Shown one piece after another: positions 1 through 7,264 of a stretch of 64,000 nt of DNA. The translations under genes were made by a program, and so were the position numbers. Source of the DNA: Dysgonamonadaceae bacterium (lineage in GTDB: Bacteria > Bacteroidota > Bacteroidia > Bacteroidales > Azobacteroidaceae). The stretch is taken from the NCBI GenBank assembly GCA_031272075.1, contig JAISUK010000047.1, forward strand, positions 1 to 64,000, written 5' to 3'. The notes below the pieces were generated by a model. That model made no database searches, was not told where the DNA came from, and saw only the letters and a program-made list of their open reading frames with translations. The stretch's first letter is position 1, and the number at the start of each line of letters is the position of its first letter.

Positions 1-315
1 CTGTTTGAACAGGTAATGTTTTCGACTGACATCATAAATCTCATTCGGGTCAGGTTCAATATGCAATAGGGATTTTTCATTGCAAAAGTGGGTGACGGTT
101 ACGGCCGAGTCGCCTTTCTGAAGATACATCACCCCGCTTAATGTTCCTGAAAAATCACCCTTGATGGCTTTGTTAAAAACGGAATGAAATCCCATTCCAT
201 CCTTATGATTAGCGGATTCATATTTTATTTGTTGCGCGTTTACTTGAAAGCATGACGCAAGAAACAATATACAAACGAGTACAATTTTCTGTACTTTTAC
301 CAATATAGACTTCAT
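1..315 (-). CDS. Hypothetical secreted protein, C-terminus truncated by window edge
   Basis: Minus-strand frame starting at CAT 313-315 reads MKSILVKVQKIVLVCILFLASCFQVNAQQIKYESANHKDGMGFHSVFNKAIKGDFSGTLSG...; signal peptide-like N-terminus; open to window start. Confidence 0.6.
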   Translation of the reverse strand, partial: MKSILVKVQKIVLVCILFLASCFQVNAQQIKYESANHKDGMGFHSVFNKAIKGDFSGTLSGVMYLQKGDSAVTVTHFCNEKSLLHIEPDPNEIYDVSRKHYLFKQ

Positions 316-326
316 GACAATAAATT

Positions 327-1130
327 TTAATCCTGAACGGTAATACTGGTAAATGTATGTCCGTAATTTAGCAATTCGGTAAGTTTTGACATGGCTTCAT
401 CCGTAGTGCGTATGCAACCATACGTTGGATGTTCAGGATTATTGCATCTTCCTGAATGAATTCCCATGTACTCTCGAGTAACATTGCTATATACAAAAGT
501 ATTAGCTCTAAATATTCCATATATCCCAAATGAACCTTCGAAAGTATCCTCCGAGTTATTATGTTTTAAAGCAGAATGTTGATCCAGCATCGAATAAGTA
601 CCATTCGGCCATATTCCTTTACTGCGTGAATCAACATTGTTATACGCACTATAAGTACCCAGACAACAGTCTCGTACATAAATACGTATTTGGTGGTCAC
701 TGCGATCGAAAGTGACAGTAAGTTCACCGATATTACTCGGAACTCTATTGCCACAGGCATCGACGTATCCCCAATCCTCTACATAACCTCCTTGCCATTG
801 GGATCTTGAACAAAACAGGTAATATTCATCCCTTGTATAAGGACGGCCGCACGCATAATCAAAAGGATCATATCTACTTCCAAGACTGGAGGCGCTATCA
901 AAAGCGTAGTAACTTCCTGATTCGTAGTATATTCCGTTATCATCATAGTAATAGCCGCAGCCTTCCGAGGTTCTTACCCATATTATATTCATGCCGGAAC
1001 CGGTGGTATAATATCCGTAATCATCCCAATAGTCGCCACCTTTGATGGCGCGTTGTTCACGCTCGTTCAGCGGTATGAAATTCTCCCTCAATGCGCTGAA
1101 ACTCTCTCCAGTTAATTTTTTCTTGTTCAT
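327..1130 (-). CDS. Double-glycine-leader protein with C-terminal L,D-transpeptidase (YkuD/DUF2778)-like domain
   Basis: N-term MNKKKLTGESFSALRENFIPLNEREQRAIKGG is a GG-type leader; C-term MGIHSGRCNNPEHPTYGCIRTTDEAM matches the H-x(n)-[ST]xGCxR catalytic pattern (H225, C239). Confidence 0.7.
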   Translation of the reverse strand: MNKKKLTGESFSALRENFIPLNEREQRAIKGGDYWDDYGYYTTGSGMNIIWVRTSEGCGYYYDDNGIYYESGSYYAFDSASSLGSRYDPFDYACGRPYTRDEYYLFCSRSQWQGGYVEDWGYVDACGNRVPSNIGELTVTFDRSDHQIRIYVRDCCLGTYSAYNNVDSRSKGIWPNGTYSMLDQHSALKHNNSEDTFEGSFGIYGIFRANTFVYSNVTREYMGIHSGRCNNPEHPTYGCIRTTDEAMSKLTELLNYGHTFTSITVQD

Positions 1131-2125: not shown

Positions 2126-4000
2126 TTATTTTATTTTATTGTTTTGTTTTGTCGAGTTGATTACTTGCTTGAAAAAATCAATAATATCCGGTACATGATA
2201 ATCAAAAGTAAATTTCATACGATTCGCTCGTACATTCCGTTCCGTTTCAGCCAGAAGTCCTTTATCTTTCAATTGAGTGACCAATTCCTTCATTGAGTCG
2301 TACAATATACACATTCCGTATTTTTCGACACCGTTGCGCATCGCAACAATATGACCCGTATTCCTTTTCTGTATGATTGGAATTCCGGCAGCCGCCAACG
2401 TGTTGATTCGAGCCGGAATATTCAAATCAAACCATCCGGCGCGCATCAACGAATTTTCATTCAAGCTTTCAAAACAATGCAACCAGCCTGCATCGTATTT
2501 AGAAAATTCTTTGACCCAATCCATTTGAGAGCAATGCGGCTCTACATGAAAATGTCTCGGGGCAAGGTCTCTGAATTGGGAGATGCCCTTTTCTTCATGG
2601 ATGTAAGTTTCATTGTATACATGTAAATGGATATTATTATCTGCCATGATGCGCATATCTTGCGGTCTGATTCCTATGATCCTTCCAATGACTACCGTAT
2701 GCACTGCTCCATCCGATGCCGAAAGTTTTTCGGAAAAATCTCCTTTAAAACAGTCGGCTTTCGGCAAGTCCCCATCCATGATAAAGGTCAAGGCATTATT
2801 GGGGTCGTATGATGTAAATAATTCAAACCATTCTTTTGTTTCTTTATTCAGGTATATTTTACCATCGGAGCGGGAGTATAAATCGATCAGTTTTTCCCAC
2901 AAACCCTGTTTCATCGCACCGTGTGGACTTTCTTTGAAATGCCATACAAAGGGAATCCCCGTATTCGCATTCATTACTTCATGCGCAAAATAAATCGCGC
3001 CTGTATTCAATTGAGCATAAATGATATCCGGTTTAATCTCTTTGAGCCTTTGTCGCCAATTATCGTACGGTACATCTTCCACATTTCCGAATGGGAGCGG
3101 GCCGACGGTACAAAAGCAATATTCCGGTTTCCCCCAAAGACCGTACAACTTGTGACCGGCCTCTTCAAAAGCATACACGCGCTCAGGATTGTAGGCCAGC
3201 TCTCCAACCAACAAAATTTTCAAACTTTCATCTGATAGCGGTCTTTTCAATTTGTAATGACTGTATGCCTTGTATTCATCGATTGTATTATAGTTGGTAG
3301 TTCTCATCCGGACAGGATCTTGGATTTTATAGTAATGTCTGTATTTATTCAATCCTCCCCCCATCTTTTCTCCCATAATTTTATGTCGCTGGCGGGGTTG
3401 ATTGGTCCATTCACAGGTGATTTTGTTTGTTGGAACGAAGAGACCTTTGTCAGTCAATTTTCTCCAGAAGGAATAAAACAAATCATCCGAAACACATTCT
3501 TCGCGCTCTATCCAGCGGTCATCCGTCTTTCTGTGCGCTGTCTGGACTAATTGCAGACAATAATCCGCCTGAACTCCCAGTGCTTTTTTATACATGATAA
3601 GACTGGCTTCGGGAACAACATCTAAACAAAAACCGCTAAAAGCCAACACAATATCTTTTGACTCTTCAAATTTTGATTTTAACGTTTCTAGATGATTGTT
3701 ATAATAAAAGTCGTCGGACGGCAAATATGCAATATATTCGTATTGAGCCATATCGATTCCTTGATTTAGTGCCGCACCCAAGCCTTTGTTGTTCGCGTTT
3801 TTGATATAACGTACAGGATAGTCACATGTGTCAGACAAATATTCAGACAAATATTCTTCTGTTTTATCTGTTGAACCATCATTGATAATGATTAATTCCC
3901 AATTCTTACAGGTTTGTTTGCACAAACTTAAGATAGCTCTTCGAATAAAGCACGCCTGATTAAATACAGGCATAATAACCGAAAAATGTATATTATTCAC
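2126..4000 (-). CDS. Glycosyltransferase, N-terminal GT2 domain plus a second GT-like domain (624 aa)
   Basis: N-term HFSVIMPVFNQACFIRRAILSLCKQTCKNWELIIINDGSTDKTEEYL is classic GT2; C-terminal half resembles a GT-B fold. Confidence 0.75.
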   Translation of the reverse strand: MNNIHFSVIMPVFNQACFIRRAILSLCKQTCKNWELIIINDGSTDKTEEYLSEYLSDTCDYPVRYIKNANNKGLGAALNQGIDMAQYEYIAYLPSDDFYYNNHLETLKSKFEESKDIVLAFSGFCLDVVPEASLIMYKKALGVQADYCLQLVQTAHRKTDDRWIEREECVSDDLFYSFWRKLTDKGLFVPTNKITCEWTNQPRQRHKIMGEKMGGGLNKYRHYYKIQDPVRMRTTNYNTIDEYKAYSHYKLKRPLSDESLKILLVGELAYNPERVYAFEEAGHKLYGLWGKPEYCFCTVGPLPFGNVEDVPYDNWRQRLKEIKPDIIYAQLNTGAIYFAHEVMNANTGIPFVWHFKESPHGAMKQGLWEKLIDLYSRSDGKIYLNKETKEWFELFTSYDPNNALTFIMDGDLPKADCFKGDFSEKLSASDGAVHTVVIGRIIGIRPQDMRIMADNNIHLHVYNETYIHEEKGISQFRDLAPRHFHVEPHCSQMDWVKEFSKYDAGWLHCFESLNENSLMRAGWFDLNIPARINTLAAAGIPIIQKRNTGHIVAMRNGVEKYGMCILYDSMKELVTQLKDKGLLAETERNVRANRMKFTFDYHVPDIIDFFKQVINSTKQNNKIK

Positions 4001-4361: not shown

Positions 4362-5606
4362 ATGGTACTCGAAATCAGGTTAAGGAATATTTATTCTATC
4401 AAGGACGAGGTCGTTTTGGATTTGCGGGCAGGTGGCAGCAAGTCTCAACAAACCCAACGATTGCAGGCAAATACATTCACCTGCAAAGACGGACAGATAT
4501 TGAAATCTGTAGCGATTTATGGAGCAAACGCCTCCGGTAAAAGCAATATTATCAAGGCAATACACCAATCTGTCCGGATGATTCTACAGTCGCATTTACA
4601 CAATGAAAATGCCGTTTTCGACATGAGGCCTTTCAAGTTTGACGGTTATCCTCAAAAACCAAGTTCATTTTCAATACGTTTCATGATTCAAGAAACAGAA
4701 TACGAATATGCGTTCTCATTCAATCACAATGGGATCATGACGGAGAATTTGTACCACAGCCCTAACGGGAGGCGCGCTAAAATATTTACCCGCAACGAAG
4801 CACCAGGAAAAGAAAAATCTAAAATTTACAGTTTCACTGCCGCCATCCGCAAACCGCTCGATGTCGCCGAAAATACCTCTCGTAAAACACTGTATCTCTC
4901 GCGCGCCAGTCAAATGGACAGGGAAATCGCCAAAACTGTTTACAAGTTTTTTGCGCAAAAAATCGCATTCAATCATCTGTCGGGGAATTTATTCGTGTAT
5001 CTGGAATTTGAAAAAAGTAAAGAATTATTATTGCATGCCTTGAAAATTGCAGACACCGATATTGTTGACTTCAAAATTAATTTTTTGAATAAAATGATCG
5101 ATTCGTCATACAACAATAACCCGACATCGGGCATTGCACAGGAAAGCGCAGAATTGCTGCCAATCATCACATTCCATCAAAACAATCCGAAGATTCCGTT
5201 CGATTTTGCAAAAGAAGAATCTGCAGGAACACAAATTTTATTCCGTTTGATGATGGTCATATTAGACAGTGTGAGAAACAACAAACTTTTACTGATTGAA
5301 GAAATCGGCAGCAACTTGCACAGCAAAATAGTGGAATACATCATTGAACTTTTTCATGCAAGCAATTCCGCACAAATTGTTTATACAACCCACAACACCA
5401 ATTTGCTCAATCTTCATAAACTGCGGAAAGATCAAATATATTTTGTTAATAAACGCATCGACGGTTCAAGTGATTTGTATTCACTTTTCAATTACAAGGA
5501 TTTCCGCGACACGATGGACGTAGAAAAAGCCTATTTACAGGGGCGTTTCGATGCGATCCCCAATATCGACGATCGACCTGAAATACTGAGGACGTTGACC
5601 AAATGA
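4362..5606 (+). CDS. AAA family ATPase, OLD/RloA/AbiEii-like (AAA15 type)
   Basis: MVLEIRLRNIYSIKDEVVLDL start, Walker A GANASGKSN, Walker B-like LLLIEEIGSNLH, THNTNLL motif. Confidence 0.8.
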   Translation: MVLEIRLRNIYSIKDEVVLDLRAGGSKSQQTQRLQANTFTCKDGQILKSVAIYGANASGKSNIIKAIHQSVRMILQSHLHNENAVFDMRPFKFDGYPQKPSSFSIRFMIQETEYEYAFSFNHNGIMTENLYHSPNGRRAKIFTRNEAPGKEKSKIYSFTAAIRKPLDVAENTSRKTLYLSRASQMDREIAKTVYKFFAQKIAFNHLSGNLFVYLEFEKSKELLLHALKIADTDIVDFKINFLNKMIDSSYNNNPTSGIAQESAELLPIITFHQNNPKIPFDFAKEESAGTQILFRLMMVILDSVRNNKLLLIEEIGSNLHSKIVEYIIELFHASNSAQIVYTTHNTNLLNLHKLRKDQIYFVNKRIDGSSDLYSLFNYKDFRDTMDVEKAYLQGRFDAIPNIDDRPEILRTLTK

Positions 5607-5658
5607 TTTCGAATATAATAGCTTACCGGTGAGCCGTAGTTTTGTTGTGATAAAGCAA

Positions 5659-5687
5659 AAGGAGTCAGAAAATTTTCCTAACTCCTT
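5659..5687. terminator. Bidirectional hairpin terminator between the ATPase and tRNA-Pro
   Basis: AAGGAGTCAGAAAATTTTCCTAACTCCTT near-perfect inverted repeat, T-rich on both sides, between convergent genes. Confidence 0.7.
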
Positions 5688-5699
5688 CTCTTTCAGCCG

Positions 5700-5774
5700 T
5701 CGGGGTGAGACGATTCGAACGTCCGACCACACGCCCCCCAGACGCGTACTCTAACCGGGCTGAGCTACACCCCG
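5700..5774 (-). tRNA. tRNA-Pro (anticodon GGG)
   Basis: Cloverleaf on minus strand: acceptor CGGGGTG/CACCCCG, anticodon loop CTGGGGG, T-arm GGACGTTCGAATCGTCT; CCA not encoded. Confidence 0.92.
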
Positions 5775-5826
5775 AAAACGCTGCAAAGATAAGAAAAATT
5801 CCTCGGAATAAATCTTAATTTTGAAA

Positions 5827-6306
5827 TTATTCTTCATCAGACCGTTCAAAAGAGATCGGAATCTGTCGGCGGAAAGCTTCTTTGAACGAAATCAAGGTTT
5901 CCGAACGAGCCAATCCCAAGGGTTGTAATTTTTGATGAATGATCTCCAATAAATGCTGGTTGTTTCGCGCATAGAGTTTGATGAACAAGTCATATTTCCC
6001 TGTGATATAATGACATTCTACCACTTCAGGAATTTTATCCAAAGCTGCCAGGACTTCTTCAAAATTTTCCGGATTCTTTAAAAACAATCCGATATACGCG
6101 GAAGTCTCATACCCAACCTTCGAGTAATCAACGACATATTCCGATCCTTTGATTACGCCCAGATTGACTAGTTTTTGAATCCGCTGGTGGATAGCTGCGC
6201 CCGAAACATCACATTCTCGCGCAATTTCCAAAAAAGGGATTTTCGCATTGCAGACGATCATGTTGAGGATTTTTTCATCCAATTGATCAAGTTGATGATG
6301 ACCCAT
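5827..6306 (-). CDS. Lrp/AsnC family transcriptional regulator
   Basis: LDQLDEKILNMIVCNAKIPFLEIARECDVSGAAIHQRIQKLVNLGVI HTH plus C-terminal RAM domain. Confidence 0.93.
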   Translation of the reverse strand: MGHHQLDQLDEKILNMIVCNAKIPFLEIARECDVSGAAIHQRIQKLVNLGVIKGSEYVVDYSKVGYETSAYIGLFLKNPENFEEVLAALDKIPEVVECHYITGKYDLFIKLYARNNQHLLEIIHQKLQPLGLARSETLISFKEAFRRQIPISFERSDEE

Positions 6307-6322
6307 AATTTATATTGTTATA

Positions 6323-7264
6323 TTATTGTTCTATATTTATCGTATTTTCGATGATGTATTCAGGCCGGTTTTTCACTTCATCGAATAAAATCCCGATGTA
6401 TTGGCCCAAAACGCCTATCGTCAACAGCTGTACGCCTCCGAAAAAGATCACAATGATCATGATTGAGGTAAAGCCGCTCTCTGCATTGGTATATCCGAAT
6501 ATTTTCCCTAGCGCATACCATATCGCCAGGATGATCCCGCCGATCACAGCGATAAATCCCAAACTTACCGATAAAAGCAATGGTTTTTTTGAGAAGTACG
6601 ACAATGCTGTGGAAGCAAAGGAGATCATTTTCCGAAACGGATATTTGGTTTTTCCGGAATGACGCGCATTTCTTTCGTAATAATAAGGCACTTGCTTGAA
6701 TCCGACCCAGGAAATGAGTCCGCGGATGTATTTTCCACGTTCCCGCAATCTGTTAAATTCTTTGATAATCGTGGAATCAATCAACCGGAAATCGCCCGTA
6801 TCCAGCGGGAATTTCACTTCCGACAGGCTATTCAGAAATCTGTAAAACAATTTAGACGACCACAATTTGAATCGGCTCTCCCCTTCCCTTGATTTACGCA
6901 CACAATAAACCACATTCGCCTGTTCTTTTTCCATCGTTTGCAACAAATCAGGGATAATTTCGGGAGGATCCTGCAAATCGGCATCAATAATCACCGCCAA
7001 ATCTGTTTTACAATAATTGATTCCGGCTGTCACCGCCGCCTGATGTCCAAAATTGCGTGAGAAATTGAGGATGAAAACGTCAGTGTCGACAGACGCGATT
7101 TCTGTCATGATCTCCAACGTCCGGTCTGTGCTCCCGTCATTGATAAAAGTGATATACGATTTGATACCGGTCAATTGATTCAATACAGATTTGACACGTT
7201 CGTAAGTGATCTGAATCACAGTCTCTTCATTATAACAAGGAATAATTATACTTAATGTTTTCAT
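6323..7264 (-). CDS. GT2 glycosyltransferase, GtrB/DPM1-like with C-terminal TM segments
   Basis: LSIIIPCYNEETVI, INDGSTDRTLEIM, DADLQDPPEIIPDL; two C-terminal hydrophobic helices. Confidence 0.92.
   Translation of the reverse strand: MKTLSIIIPCYNEETVIQITYERVKSVLNQLTGIKSYITFINDGSTDRTLEIMTEIASVDTDVFILNFSRNFGHQAAVTAGINYCKTDLAVIIDADLQDPPEIIPDLLQTMEKEQANVVYCVRKSREGESRFKLWSSKLFYRFLNSLSEVKFPLDTGDFRLIDSTIIKEFNRLRERGKYIRGLISWVGFKQVPYYYERNARHSGKTKYPFRKMISFASTALSYFSKKPLLLSVSLGFIAVIGGIILAIWYALGKIFGYTNAESGFTSIMIIVIFFGGVQLLTIGVLGQYIGILFDEVKNRPEYIIENTINIEQ

Follow-up and report, generated by a model that had tools for sequence, protein, structure and literature searches.

A double-glycine leader on a candidate toxin with an L,D-transpeptidase fold in a Dysgonamonadaceae bacterium

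In the window, the 64,000-nucleotide stretch of a Dysgonamonadaceae genome analysed here, the ORF at positions 327-1130 encodes a toxin candidate that combines a double-glycine (GG) leader with an L,D-transpeptidase-like catalytic domain. With a probability of roughly 0.78, we place the protein in a polymorphic toxin system with GG leaders, as the toxin that would be exported by a dedicated C39-peptidase ABC transporter (PCAT) and would attack peptidoglycan peptides, with the product of the adjacent ORF 315-1 as its immunity protein. Sequence and comparison show the leader, the fold, the catalytic pair, the toxin-immunity linkage, the exporter linkage in relatives and the sharing of the leader by unrelated cargoes. 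The initial annotation had read the ORF as a cell-wall-targeting enzyme exported through a peptide-type GG route, an interpretation that is supported at the level of sequence comparison.

Gene row, leader and catalytic domain

Four ORFs form a tight row on the minus strand, with gaps of 16, 43 and 11 bp: a glycosyltransferase (GT) of 624 aa (positions 2126-4000; GT2 domain Glycos_transf_2, E=2e-33, with a weak GT4-like match in the C-terminal part), a LanC-like protein of 311 aa (1174-2109; LANC_like, E=4e-10), the GG-protein and a signal-peptide ORF (1-315). The ORF of the GG-protein had been annotated at 327-1130 without a strand. It proved to be real (ORF call, Pfam and NCBIfam matches, AlphaFold and Foldseek) and 267 aa long, and it lies on the minus strand, starting with ATG at 1130 and ending at 327. 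In its product, the leader (residues 1-32, positions 1035-1130) is followed by a Tyr/Gly/Asp-rich linker (residues 33-134, positions 729-1034; pLDDT mostly <50 at residues 33-96 and higher after) and by the catalytic domain (residues 135-267, positions 330-728). Because window position 1 is base 1 of contig C52, ORF 315-1 is cut by the contig end. Promoter and terminator scans performed no better than shuffles, and PADLOC and a phage search yielded no match.

The leader, MNKKKLTGESFSALRENFIPLNEREQRAIKGG, has a predicted cut after GG. A matrix of 14 columns, built solely from the leaders of 23 small peptides in other genomes, gave it a score of 16.0, compared with a maximum of 9.2 in the reversed controls (7004 ORFs), only three of which scored above 8 (9.2, 8.6 and 8.2). 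When the full-size leader class, which was seeded by hand, was subjected to leave-one-out, the window leader ranked above all 9281 other ORFs. Across five full-size proteins, each held-out leader topped 9281 other ORFs, with the exception of one that was beaten by two. A leader profile that includes the window's own row found the window protein with E=3e-15. By matrices, profile and leave-one-out, the protein carries the GG-leader pattern of a C39-PCAT substrate; statistically, the leader is not a chance match among the ORFs scored, and its original assignment to residues 1-32 was borne out. Weak leader matches in family f45 were set aside, as they resemble what we take to be GreA transcription factors. 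The 326-aa L104 was likewise rejected as a full-size GG-protein, since it appears to be a small precursor whose reading frame runs on into a downstream gene.

With the leader profile and the matrices, nine full-size GG-proteins were found in the window and six other genomes, including the weaker cases G002 and G016, to whose leaders the window leader is only weakly similar (z 0.7 and 2.4). Leaders are related across pairs (z mostly 4-22) and most cargoes are unrelated (z around 0); for L108 and L204, the leaders are 77% identical and the cargo z is 0.4. Nine related leaders on mostly unrelated cargoes, that is, a common N-terminal trafficking part with interchangeable C-terminal domains, constitute a polymorphic toxin signature. 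The cargo is L,D-transpeptidase-like in the window and in G029. A Cys...His...Asp pattern, papain-like by motif only, is present in L106, L205, L108 and L138, and a GHTHS...D (HxH) pattern, metallopeptidase-like by motif only, in L204; L206 and L207 carry cargo of no assigned kind. A structural assignment of the papain-like cargo was attempted and discarded, as the model was poor (pLDDT 49) and the Foldseek result meaningless, and the assignment is by the C/H/D pattern only. A signal-peptide protein is a neighbour of six of the nine GG-proteins. L206, L207 and L138, from three genomes, have an erythromycin-esterase-like neighbour in place of the small exported protein (L138:4026-5845, L206:495-2423, L207:2719-4407 and 5180-6943), those of L206 and L207 being named through their similarity to that of L138. 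Erythromycin-esterase-like homologues also occur in graspetide loci (PMC8939145).

The GG-proteins of the window, G029 and G016 have in common a segment PYTxxEYY...WxGGYVExWGYV (window residues 97-123, positions 762-842, minus strand; motif scan and blastp), and L007 matched L207 in blastp with E=2e-10. As WxGGYVExxGYV, the segment stands after the leader in otherwise different GG-proteins (L207:4370-4966, window 762-842) and could be a second, linker-type module.

In Pfam searches, the window protein matched Tlde1_dom (E=7e-4, 20.5 bits) and YkuD (E=0.013, 16.5 bits) below the gathering scores of 30.1 and 23.4. Its relative from G029 (L007, 47% identical) reached 28.9 bits for YkuD and the relative L018 29.9 bits, both above the gathering score. 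In an AlphaFold model based on six sequences, the 10-residue blocks from residue 141 onwards had pLDDT values of about 71-92. When the model was compared with the PDB by Foldseek, each of the 50 matches listed was an L,D-transpeptidase or related to one (prob 1.00, best E 4.5e-5); they include YkuD (1y7m) and Tlde1a (7uo3), the two folds that had been predicted from the letters alone. The match is distant (rmsd 4.6-7.9). Normalisation by the whole query gave low TM-scores of about 0.3, in part at least because the leader and linker, half of the model, are disordered. Judged by the model, the domain has the L,D-transpeptidase fold (YkuD superfamily). This kinship is visible by fold comparison and Pfam only, and a profile search of PDB sequences found no match.

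An alignment of seven sequences showed H225 (codon 458-456), C239 (codon 416-414), R241, T236 and G238 to be invariant, and the positions initially given for the His and the Cys were right. The domain thus has the catalytic His and the GC(I/V)R cysteine that characterise the YkuD superfamily. The motif of the window protein is H-x13-C with TYGC, where Tyr takes the place of Tlde1's second His. Genome contigs queried with a single sequence returned no match, and with the alignment five loci; GG members of this catalytic type number two, in the window and in G029.

Immunity candidates and exporters

The initial annotation had stated that no immunity gene is identified in the window, which was wrong. 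ORF 315-1, with a predicted signal peptide and no other TM segment, is an immunity candidate by homology to the genes flanking the toxin of G029 (Bacteroidia bacterium MS502-39, BNTV01000089). This closest relative (214 aa) has the GG leader and the H/C pair, and its genes are ordered immunity - GG-toxin - immunity, both flanking copies being homologous to ORF 315-1. An immunity gene of G032 matches ORF 315-1 at 65% (aa) and at 89% (DNA) over window positions 3-202, up to the contig end.

RHS proteins ending in the window's toxin domain were found in G140, G064, UBA12447, BWOrgHeat MAG3 and Persicobacter sp. JZB09, and each is followed by a small exported (signal-peptide) protein. In Persicobacter, which belongs to another order, the protein behind the RHS toxin is a member of the window's immunity family. 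Among 72,556 plasmids, queries with the toxin and with the immunity candidate had one match each, adjacent on the same plasmid. On the unannotated Persicobacter plasmid CP012866 (L073:3-8789), a giant RHS protein of at least 2928 aa ends in the toxin domain and the immunity gene overlaps it. A profile comparison indicated no relation between the immunity family of the GG and Persicobacter carriers and that of the other RHS carriers. Since the same domain occurs with linked immunity genes in both kinds of carrier, it is a toxin module common to RHS and GG-leader proteins. The RHS relatives have no GG leader because another delivery protein carries them, and this favours the toxin reading. Judged by homology and position only, the immunity genes are linked and often duplicated or orphan, as expected of polymorphic toxins. 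One orphan paralogue in the window's own genome, on C21 (L021:9569-10237), adjoins an alpha/beta hydrolase, and the PCAT in L131 adjoins a hydrolase distantly similar to it.

The G029 toxin adjoins a complete exporter operon (C39-peptidase ABC transporter-HlyD-TolC), in which OEP, HlyD and the transporter (C39 E=1.5e-36) are divergent from the toxin gene. A homologue retaining the GG motif and the H/C pair next to such a transporter is what the initial annotation had proposed to look for. In G001, from the window's genus, the same exporter is divergent from another GG-protein, and the PCAT reading frame is split in two. In G032, PCAT-HlyD-OEP starts 81 bp after the immunity homologue, and the contig itself starts within one more immunity copy. 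A cognate PCAT is therewith present at the G029, G001 and G032 loci. The PCATs of G029, G044, G012, G032 and G001 form one clade (5 of 67, support 1.0); the other four are 79-88% identical to that of G029, compared with 49% for the next best outside. As a sequence-based grouping, the exporters are a dedicated clade. The toxins and the PCAT clade occur together in 3 of 48 genomes (hypergeometric test, p=0.018), many of these genomes being incomplete. A route other than the T6SS is suggested by the GG leader and by its linkage to a PCAT in relatives.

The main weakness of this reading is that a search of the window's own genome (93% complete) found no C39 peptidase, and the window copy could be an orphan. 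An ABC protein on C32 was considered as exporter and rejected, as it is without a C39 domain and has no exporter partners beside it. The only PCAT-type HlyD of the genome, on C48 (L225:8547-9389), is truncated: it is without its N-terminal part and has no adjacent transporter, as in a remnant of an exporter operon. Together with the orphan immunity paralogue on C21, these findings would fit a toxin that is stranded or in decay, its module having arrived from an RHS or GG carrier, the exporter being absent and the gene being kept with its immunity gene or being lost. We regard this as unlikely, though as an alternative to be reckoned with. The leader, linker and catalytic residues are intact, and the contig ends in the immunity gene, at the very place where in G032 the sequence runs on into PCAT-HlyD-OEP; the window's exporter therefore probably lies in the gap beyond the contig end, the contig having very probably been broken at a repeated immunity gene. 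Repeated genes are a usual cause of assembly breaks, and relatives carry the immunity genes in repeated copies.

Signal peptides are present in none of the toxins, and the immunity candidates all have a strongly hydrophobic N-terminus. The export of the immunity candidates, pointing to a periplasmic bacterial target, argues against a target other than peptidoglycan, be it that the fold acts on different D-amino-acid or protein substrates or that the toxin is directed at a non-bacterial target. Such a target would be compatible with the position of Tlde1's second active-site His, which is not conserved among the relatives (Y, D, N, L or H), but we consider it improbable.

Tailoring genes and proposed mechanism

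LanC-like and GT genes are located beside the window toxin, L204, L205 and the G044 exporter, and GTs alone beside L108; GT2/GT4 pairs occur in L108, L205 and L126. The G044 locus has the one-strand order immunity - TM - LanC - GT4 - GT2 - PCAT - HlyD - OEP. LanC-like relatives occur in GG-peptide, GG-toxin and PCAT clusters, and small GG-peptides in related genomes are surrounded by similar LanC/GT/PCAT sets. L055, L064, L067, L069, L071 and L072 are small GG-peptide clusters with a LanC-like gene, most of them also with a glycosyltransferase and a PCAT. These surroundings would suit a RiPP precursor, in which the leader serves as handle for LanC/GT tailoring and the C-terminal domain is a folded core or a dead enzyme. 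For the window protein, this appears decidedly improbable. Its match to NCBIfam TIGR04149 (residues 4-46, E=0.0048) amounts to 16.8 bits against a cut-off of 25, it has a 235-residue cargo instead of a short core, and the TIGR04149 matches lie almost all in open frames <130 aa. In addition, the protein retains a complete, conserved catalytic domain and is linked to an immunity gene that also accompanies RHS toxins. A motif check of the LanC-like protein found no zinc ligands (CHG is absent, and the last of its His residues is at about position 200 of 311), and it is therefore not expected to cyclise. An ordinary secreted L,D-transpeptidase or carboxypeptidase acting on the wall of the cell that makes it, with an odd N-terminus, would account for the fold and for a catalytic pair as in housekeeping L,D-transpeptidases, but is already disfavoured as very improbable by the absence of a signal peptide, the rare and patchy family (3 of the 393 genomes of the order), the same domain at RHS tips with linked exported proteins, the duplicated immunity-like neighbours in G029 and a leader common to unrelated cargoes.

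For the polymorphic toxin system, we infer cleavage, export, toxicity, a peptidoglycan target, immunity and tailoring in the following form. The toxin would be synthesised in the cytoplasm with a bacteriocin-type leader, which would be recognised by a dedicated tripartite exporter (C39-peptidase ABC transporter, HlyD adaptor and TolC-like channel). The exporter would cut after Gly-Gly and move the remaining ~235 residues out of the cell. In the periplasm of a competitor, the H225/C239 domain would cut or exchange peptidoglycan stem peptides, like Tlde1, and the exported product of ORF 315-1 would protect the producer. The LanC-like protein and the GT of the same operon would probably modify the toxin before export, the GT perhaps glycosylating the Tyr/Ser/Thr-rich linker.

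It is further proposed, tentatively and at slightly less than even odds, that this is an undescribed delivery class with a ~30-residue GG leader as sole trafficking part, a dedicated PCAT-HlyD-TolC clade and LanC-like/GT tailoring (probably glycosylation) before export. Polymorphic toxins are normally thought to be carried by large proteins (RHS, CdiA, VgrG/PAAR and others), and GG leaders by small peptides. If the proposal is true, the class merges the bacteriocin/RiPP and polymorphic toxin worlds and includes three or more unrelated kinds of cargo: L,D-transpeptidase-like and, both by motif only, papain-like (Cys/His/Asp) and metallopeptidase-like (HxH). The short leader seems to make up the entire delivery part for folded enzymes, beside a separate exporter clade. 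This offers a compact secretion system and a rule to find hidden toxins, namely the leader matrix beside this PCAT clade, and raises the question of whether LanC-like/GT pairs modify whole protein toxins.

Comparison with known systems

The initial suggestion of a new class of effector was restated, because an L,D-peptidase toxin domain has already been described in RHS toxins (Zhang et al. 2012, PMC3482391). Its core, a toxin on the GG route, is supported, and the system is better described as one of polymorphic toxins with a GG leader and a PCAT as their mode of trafficking. In the relevant passages of PMC3482391, the RHS toxins share with the window the kind of enzyme and the linked immunity gene, but the carrier is a huge RHS protein instead of a 32-residue GG leader; a GG-leader/PCAT route is not described in these passages. 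Tlde1 (PMC9638812) resembles the window protein in its L,D-transpeptidase fold, Cys/His pair, effector-immunity pairing and presumed periplasmic peptidoglycan target. It differs in T6SS delivery and in its motif, HX14-17(S/T)HGC, where the window protein has H-x13-C with TYGC and a Tlde1_dom score under the cut-off.

Bacteroidetocins (PMC6671954), also from Bacteroidota, likewise combine a GG leader with a C39-peptidase ABC transporter. However, they are 42-residue disulfide peptides that lack an obvious immunity gene and have TM and oxidoreductase proteins as partners, whereas the window class consists of enzymes of about 235 residues with linked immunity genes. In the Cdz system of Caulobacter (PMC5380434), toxins are exported by a type I system and an immunity gene is present, but the toxins are glycine-zipper aggregating peptides of 84-86 residues, not enzymes, and the immunity protein is located in the inner membrane. 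T6SS and CDI carriers are known to bear papain-like toxins that resemble C39 peptidases (PMC12136450).

No description of enzyme-sized GG-leader polymorphic toxins was found in the open-access library searched. Glycocins combine a GT2, a PCAT and a GG leader. They are similar to the window in having a glycosyltransferase beside a GG-leader substrate, but are small peptides with neither a LanC-like partner nor an enzyme cargo, and glycosylation of the window protein is putative. Provisionally, and as far as checked, the kind of toxin is known and the combination used for its delivery is new.
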